Positions 4,588 to 15,125 of a stretch of DNA of 64,000 bases are shown here, piece by piece. The DNA is from Bacteroidota bacterium. GTDB taxonomy: Bacteria; Bacteroidota; Bacteroidia; 2-12-FULL-35-15. The position numbers and the translations under genes were made by a program. Location of the stretch: contig CANFRC010000002.1 of assembly GCA_947449315.1 (NCBI GenBank), positions 1 through 64,000 on the forward strand, read 5' to 3'. The first letter of the stretch is position 1; every line of letters starts with the position of its first letter. Below the pieces are notes generated by a model, which was given only the letters and a program-made list of their open reading frames with translations, did no database searches and had not been told where the DNA came from.

Positions 4588-4956
4588 ATGGCAGACGTAA
4601 AAGCAATTGCTGAACAGTTAGTAAATTTAACTGTTAAAGAAGTGCAAGAATTATCAACAATCTTGAAAGATGAGTATGGAATTGAACCAGCAGCAGCAGC
4701 AGTTGTTGTATCAGCTGGAGCAGGCGGAGACGCAGCAGCAGCAAAAACATCTTTTGATGTTATTTTAGTTGAAGCAGGTGCAGCTAAATTAGGTGTTGTG
4801 AAAATTGTAAAAGACTTAACAGGATTAGGTTTGAAAGAGTCTAAAGATCTTGTTGACGGTGCACCAAAACCACTTAAAGAAGGTGTTTCTAAAGAAGAAG
4901 CAGAATCATTGAAAAAACAATTAGAAGAAGCAGGAGCAAAAGTTGAGATTAAATAA
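4588..4956 (+). CDS. rplL: 50S ribosomal protein L7/L12
   Basis: This is the stalk protein that recruits translational GTPases. The protein has 122 residues: an N-terminal dimerisation helix (about 1-35), an Ala/Gly-rich hinge (about 36-54) and the C-terminal domain with FDVILVEAG, KIxVVK-type strands and [20 protein letters not shown]. It is followed by an exceptionally stable hairpin before rpoB. Confidence 0.98.
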
Positions 4957-4986
4957 GCTGTTTCTAATACAACATTAAATTTCATT

Positions 4987-5018
4987 CCTCATCATTACGC
5001 CACGGCGTGATGATGAGG
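4987..5018 (+). promoter_or_regulatory. 15-bp stem hairpin between rplL and rpoB
   Basis: The left arm 4987-5001 pairs with 5004-5018 over all 15 positions with a single G-U. The drawn 2-nt loop would open to four or more in practice. No T run follows, only TATATGAA, so it does not look like a full intrinsic terminator. In E. coli the rplL-rpoB gap holds an attenuator and an RNase III site. A comparable processing or partial-termination role is an inference from position. Confidence 0.6.
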
Positions 5019-5077
5019 TATATGAATTTATAGTCTATAGTTGTTTTTTAACTTATTAACCTTAATACTTAAGCGCC

Positions 5078-8000
5078 TTGGCTCAGACTAAAAAAACACA
5101 GAGAATAAGTTTTGCATCTATCAAAAGTCAGATTGATTACCCTGACTTTTTGGATATTCAACTTCAATCGTTCCAAGACTTTTTTCAGCTAGAAACTACT
5201 TCTGAAAACCGTCAAAACGAAGGATTATTTAAAGTTTTCGCAGAAAACTTTCCGATATCCGATGCACGTAATAATTTCGTGCTTGAATTCTTGGATTATT
5301 TTATTGATCCGCCTCGTTACTCTCTCGAAGAGTGTATTGAGCGTGGTTTAACATACAGCGTTCCCCTAAAAGCGAAGTTACGTTTGTATTGCACAGACCC
5401 TGAACATGAAGATTTTGAAACAATTGTTCAGGATGTATACTTAGGTACGATTCCGTACATGACTCCAAAAGGTACTTTTGTTATCAATGGAGCTGAACGT
5501 GTTATCGTTTCTCAGTTACACCGTTCACCAGGTGTTTTCTTCGGTCAAAGTCGTCATGCTAATGGTACAAAATTGTATTCAGCTCGTGTTATCCCTTTCA
5601 AAGGCTCATGGATTGAATTTGCAACAGATATCAATAGTGTAATGTACGCTTACATCGATCGTAAGAAAAAATTACCGGTGACCACTTTATTAAGAGCGAT
5701 CGGATTTGAAAGCGATAAACAAATCCTTGAAATATTTGGCCTTGCTGACGAATTAAAAGTTAGTAGAGCTGCCCTTAAATCTGCAATTGGTCGTAAGTTA
5801 GCGGCACGTGTTTTAAAAACATGGATTGAAGATTTCGTAGATGAAGATACCGGAGAAGTTGTTTCTATTGAACGTAACGAGGTGATCATTGACCGCGAAA
5901 CGATTCTGGATAATAGCCACATCGATATGATTGTGGATGCTAATGTGAAATCTATTATTTTACATAAACAAGATGTAAACGCAGGTGATTACGCTATCAT
6001 CTATAATACATTGCAAAAAGATACTTCCAATTCTGAAAAAGAAGCGGTAGAACATATCTATCGCCAATTACGTAACGCTGAACCACCTGATGAAGAAACA
6101 GCTCGTGGTATCATCGATAAATTATTTTTCTCAGATAAGCGTTATGATCTTGGTGAAGTAGGTCGTTACAGAATCAACAAAAAATTGAATCTGAATACAC
6201 CTTCAAATACAAAAACATTAACGAAAGAAGATATTATTTGCATCATCAAGTATTTGATCGAATTAATCAATTCGAAAGCGGATGTGGATGATATTGACCA
6301 TTTAAGTAACAGACGTGTGCGTACAGTTGGTGAGCAATTGTATTCTCAGTTCGGTGTTGGTCTTGCCCGTATGGCTCGTACCATTCGTGAACGTATGAAT
6401 GTTCGTGATAATGAGGTGTTCACACCTACGGATTTGATCAATGCTAAAACATTATCATCCGTTATCAATTCGTTCTTCGGAACAAATCAGTTGTCTCAAT
6501 TTATGGATCAAACAAACCCTCTTGCAGAAATCACGCACAAGCGTCGACTTTCAGCACTTGGGCCAGGAGGTCTTTCTCGTGAGCGTGCTGGTTTTGAGGT
6601 TCGTGACGTTCATTACACGCACTATGGTCGTTTATGTACGATTGAAACTCCTGAGGGACCAAACATTGGTTTGATTTCTTCATTATGTGTATTCGCTAAG
6701 ATCAATAAACTAGGATTCATCGAAACACCATATATGACTGTTACCAATGGTAAAGTGGATATGGAAAAATCAGTCACTTATTTAAGTGCTGAAGAAGAAG
6801 ATTCTAAAACAATTGCACAAGCAAATGCGCCTGTTGATGCAAAAGGTAAATTCTTAGAAGCGAAAGTTAAAGCTCGTTACGAAGGTGATTTTCCAGTTGT
6901 TGAACCTGAAAAATTACAATTGATGGACGTTGCTCCTAATCAAATTGCTTCGATCGCTGCATCATTGATTCCTTTCTTGGAGCATGATGATGCCAATCGT
7001 GCATTGATGGGATCTAACATGCAACGTCAGGCTGTACCATTGTTACGTCCTGAGGCTCCAATCGTTGGAACAGGTCTTGAGCCATTAGTAGCTCGCGATT
7101 CTCGTGTGTTAGTAAATGCTGAAGGCGAAGGTGTTGTTGAATATGTTGATGCGAACGAAATTGTTATCCGTTACAACCGTACGGATGATGATCGTCTGAT
7201 CAGCTTTGATGATGATATCAAACGTTACCAATTAACTAAATTTCGTAAAACCAACCAAAGCACTTGTATCAACTTGAAACCGATCGTTAAGAAAGGTGAG
7301 AAAGTTTCTAAAGGACAAGTATTATGTGATGGTTATGCAACACAGAATGGTGAATTAGCTCTTGGTCGTAACATGAAAGTGGCATTCATGCCTTGGAAAG
7401 GTTACAACTTTGAGGATGCGATTGTTATCTCTGAGCGCGTTGCTCGTGAAGATATTTTCACATCTGTTCATATTGATGAGTATGCATTAGAAGTTCGCGA
7501 TACAAAACGTGGTTTAGAAGAATTAACTTCTGATATCCCTAACGTTTCAGAAGAGGCTACAAAAGACTTAGATGAAAACGGTTTAATTCGTATCGGTGCT
7601 GAAGTAAAAGAAGGTGATATCTTGATCGGAAAAATTACTCCTAAAGGAGAAACAGATCCATCACCGGAAGAAAAGTTATTGCGCGCTATCTTTGGTGACA
7701 AAGCAGGTGATGTGAAAGATGCTTCTTTGAAAGCACCTCCATCATTACGTGGTGTTGTTATCGATAAAAAATTATTTTCAAGAGCAATTAAAGATAAGAA
7801 AACAAAAGCAGAGGAAAAGCCATTGCTTGATAAGATCGATAAAGAACACAACACGGATGTTGCGGCTTTAAAAGGTAGACTTATTGAAAAATTGTTCACG
7901 TTGGTAAACGGAAAAACTTCTCAAGGTGTAATGAATATCCTGAAAGAAGAAGTAGTACCTAAAGGAACGAAGTTTACTCAAAAGAGTCTTGAGAAAATAG

Positions 8001-8887
8001 ATTTTTCTACTGTTAATCCTAGTAAATGGACAACGGATAAAGAGGTGAATGACAAAATTAAAATGTTGTTACATAACTTTAACATTAAGTTCAACGATTT
8101 ACTTGGAGCATTTAAACGTAAAAAGTTTGCTGTTACGATTGGTGACGAGCTACCTGCTGGTATTGTACAACTTGCTAAAGTGTACATTGCTAAGAAACGT
8201 AAGTTGAAAGTGGGAGATAAAATGGCTGGTCGTCATGGTAATAAAGGTATCGTTGCGCGTATTGTGCGTGATGAAGACATGCCGTTCCTAGATGATGGAA
8301 CTCCAGTAGACATCGTATTAAATCCATTGGGTGTACCTTCTCGTATGAACCTTGGTCAGATCTATGAAACCGTTCTTGCTTGGGCAGGACAAAAATTAGG
8401 AGAGAAATTCTTTACTCCGATTTTTGATGGTGCTACAACTGATCAGTTAAACGAGTGGACAGACAAAGCAGGTTTACCTCGTTTTGGACGTACGTTCTTA
8501 ACAGATGGTGGAACGGGTGAAAAGTTTGATCAACCTGCAACAGTAGGTATTATCTATATGTTGAAACTTGGTCACATGGTGGATGATAAGATGCACTCTC
8601 GTTCTATCGGACCATACTCTCTTATCACGCAACAACCTTTGGGCGGTAAAGCTCAATTCGGAGGTCAGCGTTTTGGTGAGATGGAGGTTTGGGCACTTGA
8701 AGCGTTTGGTGCTGCCAACATTCTTCAAGAGATCCTTACTATCAAATCTGATGACGTGGTTGGTCGTGCAAAAGCATACGAAGCTATTGTTAAGGGTGAA
8801 AACATGCCAACTCCTGGAATTCCTGAATCATTCAACGTATTGTTGCATGAATTAAGAGGATTAGGATTGAATATTTCACTTGACTAA
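5078..8887 (+). CDS. rpoB: DNA-directed RNA polymerase subunit beta
   Basis: This is the catalytic beta subunit of RNA polymerase, 1269 residues, a normal Bacteroidota length. Key segments include the rifampicin region with [16 protein letters not shown] and [13 protein letters not shown], followed by [29 protein letters not shown] and the C-terminal [19 protein letters not shown]. The start is TTG at 5078. The translated N-terminus ([15 protein letters not shown], then [16 protein letters not shown]) fits the family, and no in-frame ATG exists until about residue 130, so TTG is well supported. The gene is followed by a hairpin and two unrelated genes rather than rpoC. Confidence 0.99.
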
Positions 8888-8897
8888 TAAAGTAAGA

Positions 8898-8940
8898 ATT
8901 TGCAGCAACGGGTTAATCGTTGCTGCAAATAATTTTATCT
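8898..8940 (+). terminator. Terminator-like hairpin after rpoB
   Basis: The arms 8898-8910 and 8918-8930 form a perfect 13-bp stem with a 7-nt loop. The following AATTTTATCT is only moderately T-rich, so termination may be partial. It separates rpoB from the inserted genes and from rpoC. Confidence 0.6.
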
Positions 8941-8959
8941 GAAACTAAATAAGATTAAG

Positions 8960-10012
8960 ATGAAAAATTTATTTAAAATATTATTTTATTTAGGTGTTGT
9001 CCTTTTTTTTCTAAATAGTTGTGAAAAAGAATCTAATATTTATTCTGATAGCAATGGAAATATTAGGTCAGCTCAAATTAGAGTTCCTGCTGATAAAAAC
9101 AGCAAGTCTTTAGATTTGCTAGTAACAATAAGTCAGTCAAATGGGGTTTTGATTTTCAATTCAGAAGAAGATTTTGAATCGTCTTTGAATTATTTTATGG
9201 ATAAAAGTAAGAGTGAAATAATAGCTTTTGTTTCTACTATAGGTCTAGAGTCATACTCAGTCGATTCAACCTATAGCGATTCTATTTTAGTAGATGATTT
9301 TAAAACGATGCCTTATTTCTTTTCTTTACTAAGTAAAGATGGAATAATCAAAATTGCTAATAGACTTTATCGATTAGATTTTGTAAATAAAAATGTTGTC
9401 ATTTCTCCAAATGGAAATTTTGCAGATATTCCATATTTGAAACTAGGAGTTGAATTTGCAGGAAAAACATTAGTTGAAAAATTTAATTCGGATATTGTAT
9501 ATGATATAAATTTTTCAAATAAAGATTCATTAAGAGATGAAAATGATTCTTTAAGTTTATCATACAAAAAGAAAAAGTGTCATGAAAAACCTGCCCATCC
9601 TAAAGTGAATGTTGCAGTTACTCAGGGATATAAATACAAAGAATTTGCTTATAGATTTAAAGTTAGAGCAGAATATTCAAACTATGGGGTTTTTCATGTT
9701 TTGGGTGTAAAAATTGTTCATCAATATTATAAGCCATACCCAACTATAACAGCCGGTTGGTATACTTCTCCTCTAAACGCACCAGAATTAAATTATTTAT
9801 CAAGTTATTCATACAAGGTAAAATGTAAACCTGTTTTTGGTTATGGTTCCCTTGTGTCGTTTACATATTATAGTAGTTCAAGTCATTTGCATCCATATTA
9901 TTCTGGAACAAGAAGGTTGCATACGTATGATTTACATTCATTGTCTGGAGGGAAAGGGTTGGATGGCAATTACTATACAATTGGATATCCAGTTATAGTT
10001 TCATGGCCTTAG
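8960..10012 (+). CDS. Putative lipoprotein of unknown function, between rpoB and rpoC
   Basis: I do not recognise the family. The 350-residue protein has a lipoprotein signal peptide: a hydrophobic stretch at about residues 6-19 and the lipobox LNSC with Cys near 21, followed by acidic EKES. A central segment (about 118-140, MPYFFSLLSKDGIIKIANRL) resembles a short motif seen in other secreted Bacteroidota proteins. A KKKK patch near 203 is followed by a Tyr/His-rich half. Codon use is visibly more AT-rich than in rpoB and rpoC. It is followed by an outer-membrane barrel gene. A surface or periplasmic location is inferred, and the role is unknown. Confidence 0.75.
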   Translation: MKNLFKILFYLGVVLFFLNSCEKESNIYSDSNGNIRSAQIRVPADKNSKSLDLLVTISQSNGVLIFNSEEDFESSLNYFMDKSKSEIIAFVSTIGLESYSVDSTYSDSILVDDFKTMPYFFSLLSKDGIIKIANRLYRLDFVNKNVVISPNGNFADIPYLKLGVEFAGKTLVEKFNSDIVYDINFSNKDSLRDENDSLSLSYKKKKCHEKPAHPKVNVAVTQGYKYKEFAYRFKVRAEYSNYGVFHVLGVKIVHQYYKPYPTITAGWYTSPLNAPELNYLSSYSYKVKCKPVFGYGSLVSFTYYSSSSHLHPYYSGTRRLHTYDLHSLSGGKGLDGNYYTIGYPVIVSWP

Positions 10013-10032
10013 TTAGTTTAGGTTTTAAAGAA

Positions 10033-10767
10033 ATGTTTAATCAAAAAAAGTATATTATACTTATTTTATTTGTTTTAATTTCAGGAATGGTAATAGCTCA
10101 AAATAACTTATTGATTGGTGTGAAAATAGCTCCTGTTTTTACTAAAGCTACTATTACCGAAAATAACAATGGTTTTGCTACTCCTATTGTTCCTGGTTAT
10201 TCTATGGGCATCCCTGTTGCTTATCGGTTCAAAGAAAAACATACTATTACACTTTCTTTAAATTACACAGAAAAATACGTTTCTATAAAAAATAGCGCAC
10301 CTTTAGATACTAGTGGGTTTTTAAGAAGCACCGATGCGTTTAATACAAAAGAAATTCAATTTTTTTATACTTATATTCTGAAACATTCTCTAAAAAATAA
10401 TTATTATATAGGAGGGGGCGGTTCACTTGATTTTGCAAGTTTATGGAAGCTAGATAAATCGCCAAATAATAATGTGGATTCTTACGGAATTGTAGCAAAT
10501 GGCAATGATTATGAAACAAGAACATATGTGTCTTTAATGGGAACTTTGGGTTATGAAAGGAAATTAAAAAACAATAGAAAATTAAATATTGGACTATCTT
10601 ATGTTCAGGGTTTGCGGCCAATTCAAAGGTTCCATATAAAAAAATATGGACAAGCAGAGGAAACAACTTACATAACAAAAGGGAGTTATTTAGGATTAAA
10701 TGTACAATACTATTTTGCAGATCTATTAAAACTGAAAAAATCGAAAAATTTAGAATCAGCAAAATAA
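10033..10767 (+). CDS. Putative outer-membrane beta-barrel protein, between rpoB and rpoC
   Basis: No specific family is recognised. The protein has about 244 residues. From the ATG at 10033 it has a clean signal peptide (MFNQKKYIILILFVLISGMVIAQ), with an A-rich stretch just before the start. An in-frame ATG at 10003 overlaps the preceding lipoprotein gene and would put a polar extension before the signal peptide, so it is less likely. The mature part shows alternating strands (HTITLSLNYTEKYVSI, YYIGGGGSLDF, LNIGLSYVQG) and ends LGLNVQYYFADLL, typical of a small barrel. It probably works with the lipoprotein upstream, with which it is closely spaced. Confidence 0.7.
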   Translation: MFNQKKYIILILFVLISGMVIAQNNLLIGVKIAPVFTKATITENNNGFATPIVPGYSMGIPVAYRFKEKHTITLSLNYTEKYVSIKNSAPLDTSGFLRSTDAFNTKEIQFFYTYILKHSLKNNYYIGGGGSLDFASLWKLDKSPNNNVDSYGIVANGNDYETRTYVSLMGTLGYERKLKNNRKLNIGLSYVQGLRPIQRFHIKKYGQAEETTYITKGSYLGLNVQYYFADLLKLKKSKNLESAK

Positions 10768-10835
10768 TAGATGATAAGTTTAGTTTTAAAATCAATAAGC
10801 GTCATAGAATAATAAATAATTAAATAAATAATAAA

Positions 10836-13800
10836 ATGGCTTTCAAAAGAGACATCAAATTAAAAAGTAACTTCTCGAAAATTACAATCAGCCTTGCATC
10901 TCCAGAAGCAATTTTGGAGCGTTCAAGCGGTGAAGTTGTAAAACCGGAAACGATCAATTACAGAACATATAAACCAGAAATGGGTGGATTGTTTTGTGAA
11001 AGAATTTTTGGACCGGTAAAAGATTGGGAATGTGCTTGTGGTAAATATAAACGTATCCGTTACAAAGGAATTGTTTGTGACAGATGTGGTGTTGAAGTAA
11101 CTGAGAAAAAAGTACGTAGAGAGCGTATGGGCCATATCAATTTGGTGGTGCCTGTTGCGCATATCTGGTACTTTAAATCGTTACCAAATAAGATCGGTTA
11201 TTTATTAGGCTTGCCAACTAAAAAGTTGGACATGATCATTTATTACGAACGTTATGTTGTAGTAAATGCAGGTGTTAAAGCTACAGACGGAATCAATTAC
11301 CTTGATTTCTTATCTGAAGAAGAGTATTTAAATATCCTAGATACACTTCCAAAAGAAAATCAATATTTGGATGATACTGATCCGAATAAATTCATCGCTA
11401 AGATGGGTGCAGAAGCGTTACAAGCGCTTTTGAGCCGTGTTGATCTTGATGGTTTGTCATTTGATCTTCGTCTCAAAGCAAATACTGAAACATCTCAACA
11501 ACGAAAAAATGAAGCATTAAAACGTTTGCAAGTTGTTGAAAGCTTCCGTCATGCCAACCAAAATGTAGAGAATCGTCCGGAGTGGATGATTGTAAAAATC
11601 GTTCCTGTTATTCCACCAGAATTACGTCCTTTAGTTCCATTGGATGGCGGTCGTTTTGCTACTTCTGACTTAAATGATTTATACAGACGTGTTATTATTC
11701 GTAACAATCGTTTGAAGCGTTTGATAGAGATCAAAGCTCCTGAAGTTATCTTACGTAATGAAAAACGTATGTTGCAAGAAGCAGTTGATTCATTATTTGA
11801 TAACTCACGTAAATCAAATGCAGTAAAAACAGAATCGAACAGAGCATTAAAATCTTTATCTGATTCATTAAAAGGTAAACAAGGTCGTTTCCGTCAGAAT
11901 TTACTTGGTAAACGTGTCGATTATTCTGCACGTTCGGTAATTGTTGTTGGACCGGAGTTGAAATTGCATGAGTGCGGATTGCCTAAAGATATGGCAGCTG
12001 AGTTATTCAAACCGTTTATCATTCGTAAAATGATTGAGCGTGGTATTGTTAAAACTGTAAAATCTGCAAAAAAAATAGTTGATAAAAAAGAACCTATCGT
12101 TTGGGATATTTTAGAGAACATTTTAAAAGGACATCCTGTTCTTTTAAATCGCGCTCCAACATTGCACAGATTAGGTATCCAAGCTTTCCAACCAAAATTA
12201 ATTGAAGGAAAAGCAATCCAATTGCACCCATTGACTTGTACCGCGTTTAACGCGGATTTTGACGGGGATCAAATGGCAGTTCACGTTCCATTGGGACATG
12301 CTGCTATCTTGGAAGCACAATTGTTAATGCTTGCTTCACACAATATCTTAAACCCTGCAAATGGGGCTCCGGTTGCCGTTCCTTCTCAGGACATGGTGCT
12401 TGGTCTATACTATATGACCAAAGGAAAGAAAAATACAAAAGAGGATGTTGTGAAAGGTGAAGGATTAACGTTTTATTCTCCTGAAGAAACCATTATCGCT
12501 TACAACGAAAAACGTGTTGACTTACATGCATGGGTGAAAGTTCGTTTGGAAGTAAAAGAAGGGGATAAATTAGTAAACAAACTTATTGAAACAACTGTTG
12601 GTCGTATCTTGTTTAATCAAGTGGTACCTAAAGAAGTTGGTTACATCAATGAGTTGTTGACTAAAAAATCTTTACGTGATATTATTGGAAATATTGTTAA
12701 GGAAACCGGCATGGCTAAAACAGCTAAGTTCCTTGATGAAATGAAAACGTTAGGTTTCATGAGTGCATTCCGTGGATGTTTATCGTTTAACTTAGGTGAC
12801 GTAATTGTTCCTGAGGATAAAGGTAAAATGATTGCTGATGCAAATGCACAAGTGGATGAGGTGGTTGCAAACTACAACATGGGTTTCATTACCAATAACG
12901 AACGTTACAATCAGGTAATTGATATCTGGACACATACCAACTCTCGTATCACAGCCAAAGTATTGAATACATTGACTACTGATCGTCAAGGATTTAATCC
13001 TGTATTTATGATGTTGGATTCTGGAGCCCGTGGTTCTAAGGAGCAAATTCGTCAGTTGGGTGGTATGCGTGGATTGATGGCCAAACCTCAAAAAGGTGCA
13101 GGCGGTGGAGAGATCATTGAAAACCCTATTATCTCTAACTTTAAAGAAGGGTTATCGATTCTTGAGTACTTTATCTCTACTCACGGTGCTCGTAAAGGTC
13201 TTGCCGATACAGCATTAAAAACAGCGGATGCTGGTTACTTGACCAGACGTTTAGTTGACGTTGCTCAAGATGTTATCATCACTGTTGAAGATTGTGGTAC
13301 TTTGCGTGGATTGATTGCGACACCTTTGAAGAAAAATGATGAGGTAGTTGAATCTTTATATGACAGAATTTTAGGTAGAACAGCTGTTCACGATGTGTAT
13401 CATCCATTAACAGGTGATTTGATCATCAGTGCTGGTGAAGAGTTAACGGAAGATTATGCAAAAATAATTTCTGAATCTCCTATTGAAGCGGTAGAGATCC
13501 GTTCTGTATTAACTTGCGAGAGCAAAAACGGTGTGTGTGGAAAATGTTACGGACGTAACTTGGCAACAGGTAGAATGGTTCAGCGTGGTGAAGCAGTTGG
13601 TGTTATTGCTGCTCAGTCAATTGGTGAGCCGGGTACTCAGTTAACATTGCGTACATTCCACGTTGGTGGTGTTGCGGGTGGTTCTGTTGCTTCTTCTAAA
13701 TTGGAAGCGAAGTACGACGGTATTCTTGAGATTGATGAGTTGAAAACAGTGAAGCGTAAAAATGCTGAAGGAAAAACTGTTGACGTAGTTATTGGTCGTT

Positions 13801-15125
13801 CTGCAGAGATGCGTATCGTGGATGCAAACACAAAAATTGTATTAACAACAGGTAATATCCCTTACGGTTCTCAATCGTATGCGAAACATTTGGATAAGGT
13901 TAAAAAAGGAGATTTAATCTGTGATTGGGATCCGTATAACGCTGTTATCGTTTCTGAATTTGCAGGTAAGATTGAATTTGATAATCTGGAAGAAGGGATC
14001 ACTTTCCGTGAAGAATCAGATGAACAAACAGGCTTTAAAGAAAAAGTTATTGTTGAGAGTCGTGATAAATCTAAAAATCCTTCTATCAAAATTGTTGTTG
14101 CAAAAGATGTATTACGTACATACAACATTCCGGTTGGTGCGCACATTATCGTAAATGACGCATCAAAAATAGAAGCAGGTCAAATCCTTGTTAAGATTCC
14201 TCGTTCTTCTGGTAAAACAGGTGATATCACTGGAGGTTTACCGCGAGTTACTGAGTTGTTCGAAGCTCGTAACCCAAGTAATCCAGCTGTTGTTTCTGAA
14301 ATTGATGGGATTGTTTCATTTGGTAAAATTAAACGTGGTAACCGTGAGGTTCATGTTGAATCTAGAACGGGTGAAAAGAAAACGTATCTTGTTCAGTTAT
14401 CAAAACATATTCTTGTTCAGGAAAATGATTTCATCAAAGCTGGTGAGCCATTGTCTGACGGAGCTATCACACCAAGTGATATCTTAGCTATCAAAGGGCC
14501 AACTGCTGTTCAGGAATACTTAGTAAATGAGGTACAAGAGGTATACCGTTTACAGGGTGTTAAGATCAATGATAAACATTTCGAAGTGATTGTTCGTCAG
14601 ATGATGCGTAAGGTTGATATCAGCGAAGCAGGAGATACTATTTTCTTAGAAAAACAACTGGTTAATAAATCAGAGTTTATGAAAGAAAATGACAACTTGT
14701 ACGCAAAAGTATTGATCCTTGATGCTGGTGATTCTTCATTATACAAAGCTGGTCAGATTATCAGTGCGCGTAAATTAAGAGATGAAAATTCTTCATTGAA
14801 ACGCAGAGATATGAAAATCATTGAAGCGCGTGAAGCCGTTCCGGCAACTTCAAGCCAAGTATTACAAGGTATCACTCGTGCATCGTTGCAAACAAACAGC
14901 TTCATGAGTGCTGCATCGTTCCAGGAAACTACAAAAGTTCTGAACGAAGCTGCAGTAAGCGGAAAAGTCGATCATTTGTTAGGATTGAAAGAAAACGTAA
15001 TTGTTGGACATTTAATCCCTGCAGGTACAGGCTTAAGAGCATACGACAAAATGATCGTTGGTTCTCAAGAAGAGTACGATAGATTAATGGCTTCCAAAAA
15101 AGAAGCATTAGAAGAAGAAGCATAA
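10836..15125 (+). CDS. rpoC: DNA-directed RNA polymerase subunit beta'
   Basis: This is the beta' subunit of RNA polymerase, 1429 residues. An N-terminal zinc ribbon is seen in [20 protein letters not shown], the Mg-binding NADFDGDQM near residues 470-478, the bridge-helix/trigger-loop region [19 protein letters not shown], and a second zinc site [16 protein letters not shown]. The ATG at 10836 gives [18 protein letters not shown], typical of Bacteroidota. It lies 68 nt downstream of the barrel gene with no clear promoter between them, so it may depend on read-through from upstream or on an unrecognised promoter. Confidence 0.99.

Follow-up and report, generated by a model that had tools for sequence, protein, structure and literature searches.

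Two genes for predicted surface proteins, a lipoprotein and a small outer-membrane beta-barrel, separate rpoB from rpoC in a Bacteroidota bacterium. Few gene neighbours in bacteria are as constant as these two RNA polymerase genes, and assembly of the enzyme needs both products. The pair was found in a 64,000-nucleotide stretch of DNA (GCA_947449315.1, contig CANFRC010000002.1, positions 1 to 64,000), which is referred to here as the window. It is absent from the same position in relatives, its base composition is foreign to its surroundings, and distantly homologous pairs occur in other genomes. It is likely that the pair is a two-gene surface module which was inserted, probably by transfer, between a hairpin at the 3' end of rpoB and the start of rpoC, and that the interruption is tolerated and crossed by read-through transcription.

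Rarity and composition of the insert

The genes on the forward strand of the window run in the order tuf, nusG, rplK, rplA, rplJ, rplL, rpoB, a 1,948-bp spacer, and rpoC. rpoB (5078-8887; TTG start) was identified from its open reading frame (ORF), its translation, and a match to PF00562 (1.5e-126), and rpoC (10836-15125; ATG start) from its ORF. The spacer contains the hairpin, the lipoprotein gene, and the barrel gene. An earlier note, made from the letters of the window, had described a gene pair parting rpoB from rpoC; when the ORFs were read again, the pair was confirmed as real and the coordinates were found to be correct. The source genome is 99.8% complete in 27 contigs, and the contig carrying rpoB and rpoC measures 252,523 bp.

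The window was compared with 35 further genomes of its genus; no other lineage of its family or order was represented among the relatives compared. At 24 loci from these genomes the gap between rpoB and rpoC could be measured; it spans 75-372 bp, and the pair occurs in none of them. In the nearest relative (G011), whose rpoB DNA is 90.3% identical, the gap is 86 bp. The gap is 416 bp or less in 78 of the 79 named Bacteroidota loci in which it was measurable. Moreover, 395 Bacteroidia genomes were searched with a query in which the end of rpoB was joined to the start of rpoC. At least about 59 of them gave a single match spanning both parts, and among the matches listed the two halves lay near each other in every genome matching both, except that of the window. 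Because the same-genus gaps and 78 of the 79 Bacteroidota gaps are short, and the same-genus gaps lack the pair, the insertion is lineage-specific. The interruption is thus rare, yet the site has been used more than once (see below). The earlier note had called it an unusual insertion, to be checked across close relatives, and this description is supported by every relative examined. Presence of the pair throughout the order would have made it a lineage trait instead; this was looked at within the genus, where none of the other rpoB-rpoC gaps measured contained the pair. Nothing about an insertion of this kind came up in a literature search.

The composition of the two genes also sets them apart. 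Their GC contents are 29.0% and 28.8%, the lowest among the ORFs compared in the window; 40 other ORFs lie at 35.2 ± 2.2%, and rpoB and rpoC at 38%. The GC content at third codon positions is 0.17-0.18 for the pair against 0.287 ± 0.045 for the other ORFs, in agreement with the more AT-rich codon use previously noted. Surface genes that evolve fast are often poor in GC, and the low values do not prove transfer. No homologue of either gene was found elsewhere in the genome.

Comparison with the gaps of two relatives (G011 and G025) places the inserted DNA at approximately 8931-10813. It is followed by an AT-rich rpoC leader (10814-10835, forward strand) that appears to have been retained, as TTAAATAAATAATAAA is also found before rpoC in G011. 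An 8-bp direct repeat, AAATAATT, is present at both edges (8927-8934 and 10814-10821). The repeat is compatible with microhomology-mediated joining, but a chance match of this kind is expected in such AT-rich flanks, and it was not relied on as a target duplication. Neither a donor nor an integrase, a transposase, or a significant target duplication could be identified for the insert. With two ORFs as its whole content and nothing but the 8-bp AT-rich repeat at its edges, it does not qualify as a transposon or an integron cassette.

A lipoprotein-barrel pair and its distant relatives

The lipoprotein gene (8960-10012, forward strand) encodes 350 amino acids with a signal ending in LNSC. No significant match to the protein was found in Pfam, NCBIfam, or the PDB, and no homologue was found in plasmids, phages, viral contigs, or a scan of genome contigs. 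A match is absent from 34 of the 36 genomes of the genus. Homologues were found in another member of the genus (G008; 28% identical over residues 2-117, E 4e-7) and in a member of another family (G116; 26% identical over the full length, E 2e-13). A profile built from these two and the window protein revealed more members in Bacteroidia, which are recognized through an N-terminal domain of ~160 residues (roughly NGxLxF ... LLNKDGxIxIGNxIY). This domain is common to the family, while the C-termini diverge between members. Four further profile matches (L220, L221, L224, and L225) were set aside, being either limited to the signal peptide or unrelated.

The barrel gene (10036-10767, forward strand) encodes 243 amino acids with a clean Sec signal peptide; with a second candidate ATG further upstream, at 10003, it would overlap the lipoprotein gene. 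Its product matches PF13568 (OMP_b-brl_2) with 27.6 bits, just above the gathering cut-off of 27 (3.7e-06), through residues 32-207 and profile positions 2-173 of 175. AlphaFold predictions from single sequences, with no alignment, were unreliable for both the lipoprotein (pLDDT 31) and the barrel protein (pLDDT 34.9).

The search for homologues of both proteins, which the earlier note had suggested, revealed that the distant relatives are arranged as the same pair. In G116 the gene directly after the lipoprotein homologue ranks second among the homologues of the window barrel in other genomes (E 6e-13). In G008 the ORF that follows is barrel-like, with no significant BLAST similarity to the window barrel; here the pair adjoins efflux-type genes and not rpoB. 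Nine further members found with the profile have a readable downstream gene. In seven of them this is a barrel-like ORF of 211-289 amino acids, and in the other two (L213 and L217) a DUF4249 gene (2.5e-22 and 2.8e-29) and a larger receptor-like ORF follow. Pfam lends weak support to the seven partners being barrels, and most partner genes were called barrels on their general look or on sub-threshold Pfam scores. The window, G008, G116, and seven of the nine further members thus show one arrangement: a lipoprotein gene with the shared N-terminal domain and, next to it downstream in the same orientation, a small barrel-like gene. Since the distant lipoprotein homologues usually precede a small barrel-like gene, the two genes appear to form a sporadic surface module of Bacteroidia, to whose other copies the window pair is only remotely homologous.

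A joint role of the two proteins at the cell surface is suggested by their signal peptides, the gene order, and the barrel match. The lipoprotein would be anchored in the outer membrane and act with its barrel partner at the surface, possibly in interaction or in the display of its fast-diverging C-terminal domain.

The related pair in G008 bears on where the window genes came from. It indicates that the family existed in the genus, as would be expected if old resident surface genes had been moved between rpoB and rpoC by a rearrangement within the same genome. Such a rearrangement is nevertheless unlikely: the G008 lipoprotein is similar over its first third only, its barrel shows no significant similarity, almost all genomes of the genus lack a lipoprotein match, and the GC of the window pair lies far below that of the other window ORFs. 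Transfer remains the preferred reading, in which a module from an unsampled donor would have entered a short AT-rich spacer in one species of the genus.

The rpoB 3' hairpin and expression of rpoC

The hairpin after rpoB (8898-8930, forward strand) has a 14-bp stem and lacks a real U-tract. Its fold (86 nt) has a free energy of -25.3 kcal/mol (z -6.5), and none of 200 dinucleotide shuffles was equally stable. The proposal of a transferred surface module stands with respect to its absence from relatives, its foreign composition, and the pairs found elsewhere, but the hairpin, which had been counted as part of it, does not belong to the module; across the genus, hairpins adjoin rpoB where there is no insert. 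The rpoB-rpoC gaps of L003-L028, L064-L143, and L226-L250 were compared, and a hairpin of -10 kcal/mol or stronger was found in all 25 loci of the genus, the window counted, and in 54 of 80 other Bacteroidota loci. In control gaps of the genus, one was found in none of 24 rplJ-rplL gaps and in four of 16 nusG-rplK gaps, which are similarly long. A stricter search for clean single stems identified 14 of the 25 genus loci and 37 of the 80 others, and the median distance of these stems from the rpoB stop codon is 9-12 nt in the genus and the other loci. The stem sequences are mostly unrelated from species to species. Hairpins are more constant still in the rplL-rpoB gap, where they occur in 23 of 24 genus loci and in 73 of 73 others.

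The hairpin at 8898-8930 is therefore better seen as native, belonging to the ancestral 3' end of rpoB rather than to the insert. An Rfam search of positions 4900-11000 gave no match, so that the hairpin does not correspond to a described family, and a literature search found nothing on a hairpin between rpoB and rpoC. A structure found in much of the sampled phylum thus appears to be undescribed.

The hairpin could also be an intrinsic terminator or attenuator, in which case rpoC would have to be transcribed from an unseen promoter within or downstream of the insert. In stability its stem equals the terminator-like hairpins after other window genes (-22 kcal/mol), and a scan with a loose terminator consensus flags it. 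However, its tail is AATTTTATC, which contains no U-run, and the strong rpoB 3' hairpins of relatives are alike in this respect: six or more T within the next nine bases were found after none of the 14 in the genus or the 37 in other loci. Moreover, in relatives rpoC comes straight after the hairpin. Termination at this point is accordingly held to be quite improbable.

Read-through is proposed instead because the genes are co-directional, no terminator precedes rpoC, and no U-tract follows the hairpin. The stretch from the end of the barrel gene to rpoC was found to contain no hairpin stronger than -4 kcal/mol. A scan for Bacteroidota-type promoters (TTTG-TAnnTTTG) gave no match, but it equally gave none in front of tuf or in four control stretches and so had no power. 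As judged from these sequence features, rpoC most likely depends on read-through across both inserted genes, which would themselves be transcribed from rpoB onward into rpoC.

The native elements on both sides also speak to the integrity of the locus. That the assembler or binning joined a pair from elsewhere into rpoBC is very improbable, for although the genome is in 27 contigs and the insert differs in composition from its flanks, a single 252-kb contig spans it with nothing in the sequence suggesting a junction error, native spacer features lie at both junctions (the rpoB 3' hairpin and the rpoC leader matching G011), both ORFs are intact and co-directional, and the genome holds no second copy of either gene to drive a mis-join.

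Under the preferred reading of a transferred module, the insertion would be tolerated with rpoB retaining its 3' hairpin and rpoC its leader and ATG. Translation of beta and beta' would already be uncoupled, as each keeps its own start, and we infer that 1.9 kb between the genes may for this reason be tolerated; an effect on the balance of the two subunits would likewise be conjectural. Among the rpoB genes of L064-L143 and L226-L250, no start other than TTG or GTG is available in 23 of 24 genus loci and in 50 of 76 other Bacteroidota loci, and the rpoC starts in the gaps inspected are ATG. Being conserved, this weak start of beta could matter for the balance of the subunits. A natural species with 1.9 kb of foreign surface genes inside rpoBC shows that tight adjacency is not essential, and makes the locus a useful case in which to ask how beta and beta' are kept in balance.

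Other interrupted loci and known systems

The one other large interruption seen was in a Hymenobacter metagenome-assembled genome (L089; JANYFQ010000532.1), where rpoB and rpoC are 2,111 bp apart (L089 4390-6500). The gap contains genes for XisH (6.5e-37), XisI (1e-12), and a DUF2442 protein (1.9e-14), and one ORF without an assigned family. This insert resembles that of the window in its position after the rpoB 3' hairpin, its co-directional genes, and its size of about 2.1 kb, but the genes are unrelated and the lineage is different, which points to an independent event. Within the window's genus, the gap of G005 (L025 / L245) measures 336 bp and holds a small zinc-ribbon ORF, whose weak likeness to MqsA/YokU antitoxins falls under the Pfam cut-offs. 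In all three interrupted loci the hairpin remains next to rpoB and the insert comes after it.

Two further gaps in the genus are of a different kind. The 372-bp gap of G014 (L023 / L243) consists mostly of TAGCTATCGCTGG-type short repeats downstream of the hairpin. In G009 (L038) rpoB is frame-broken, and the sequence from its end through the gap to the first rpoC codons is missing or garbled; this damage is probably an assembly error, perhaps at the hairpin.

A broader, speculative and rather doubtful interpretation is that the stretch separating the rpoB 3' hairpin from rpoC serves as a permissive landing site for unrelated foreign genes in Bacteroidota. A hairpin conserved in position but variable in sequence would then insulate rpoB, and the surface module, XisH/XisI, and the antitoxin-like ORF would be candidates for genes expressed along with RNA polymerase. 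If true, the dose of the insert, and possibly the beta/beta' ratio, would be tied to growth rate.

The inserted genes have partial counterparts among known families. The lipoprotein can be linked to the DUF4848 lipoproteins of Bacteroidota (PF16140) through G270, a distant member found with the profile, whose N-terminal domain matches DUF4848 (2.9e-7). The window protein itself gives no match, and the family threshold is reached only by this distant relative. The available part of the literature yielded DUF4848 once, in a passing mention. The barrel ORF, with its PF13568 match and Sec signal peptide, resembles the OMP_b-brl_2 (PF13568) and OMP_b-brl (PF13505) barrels; unlike these families, whose definition does not include a lipoprotein partner, the window gene is part of a pair, and its best homologues are only 29-30% identical. 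With regard to the arrangement of the RNA polymerase genes, Helicobacter, in which rpoB and rpoC are fused, also departs from simple adjacency, but there the two genes have been joined, whereas here they have been pushed apart.
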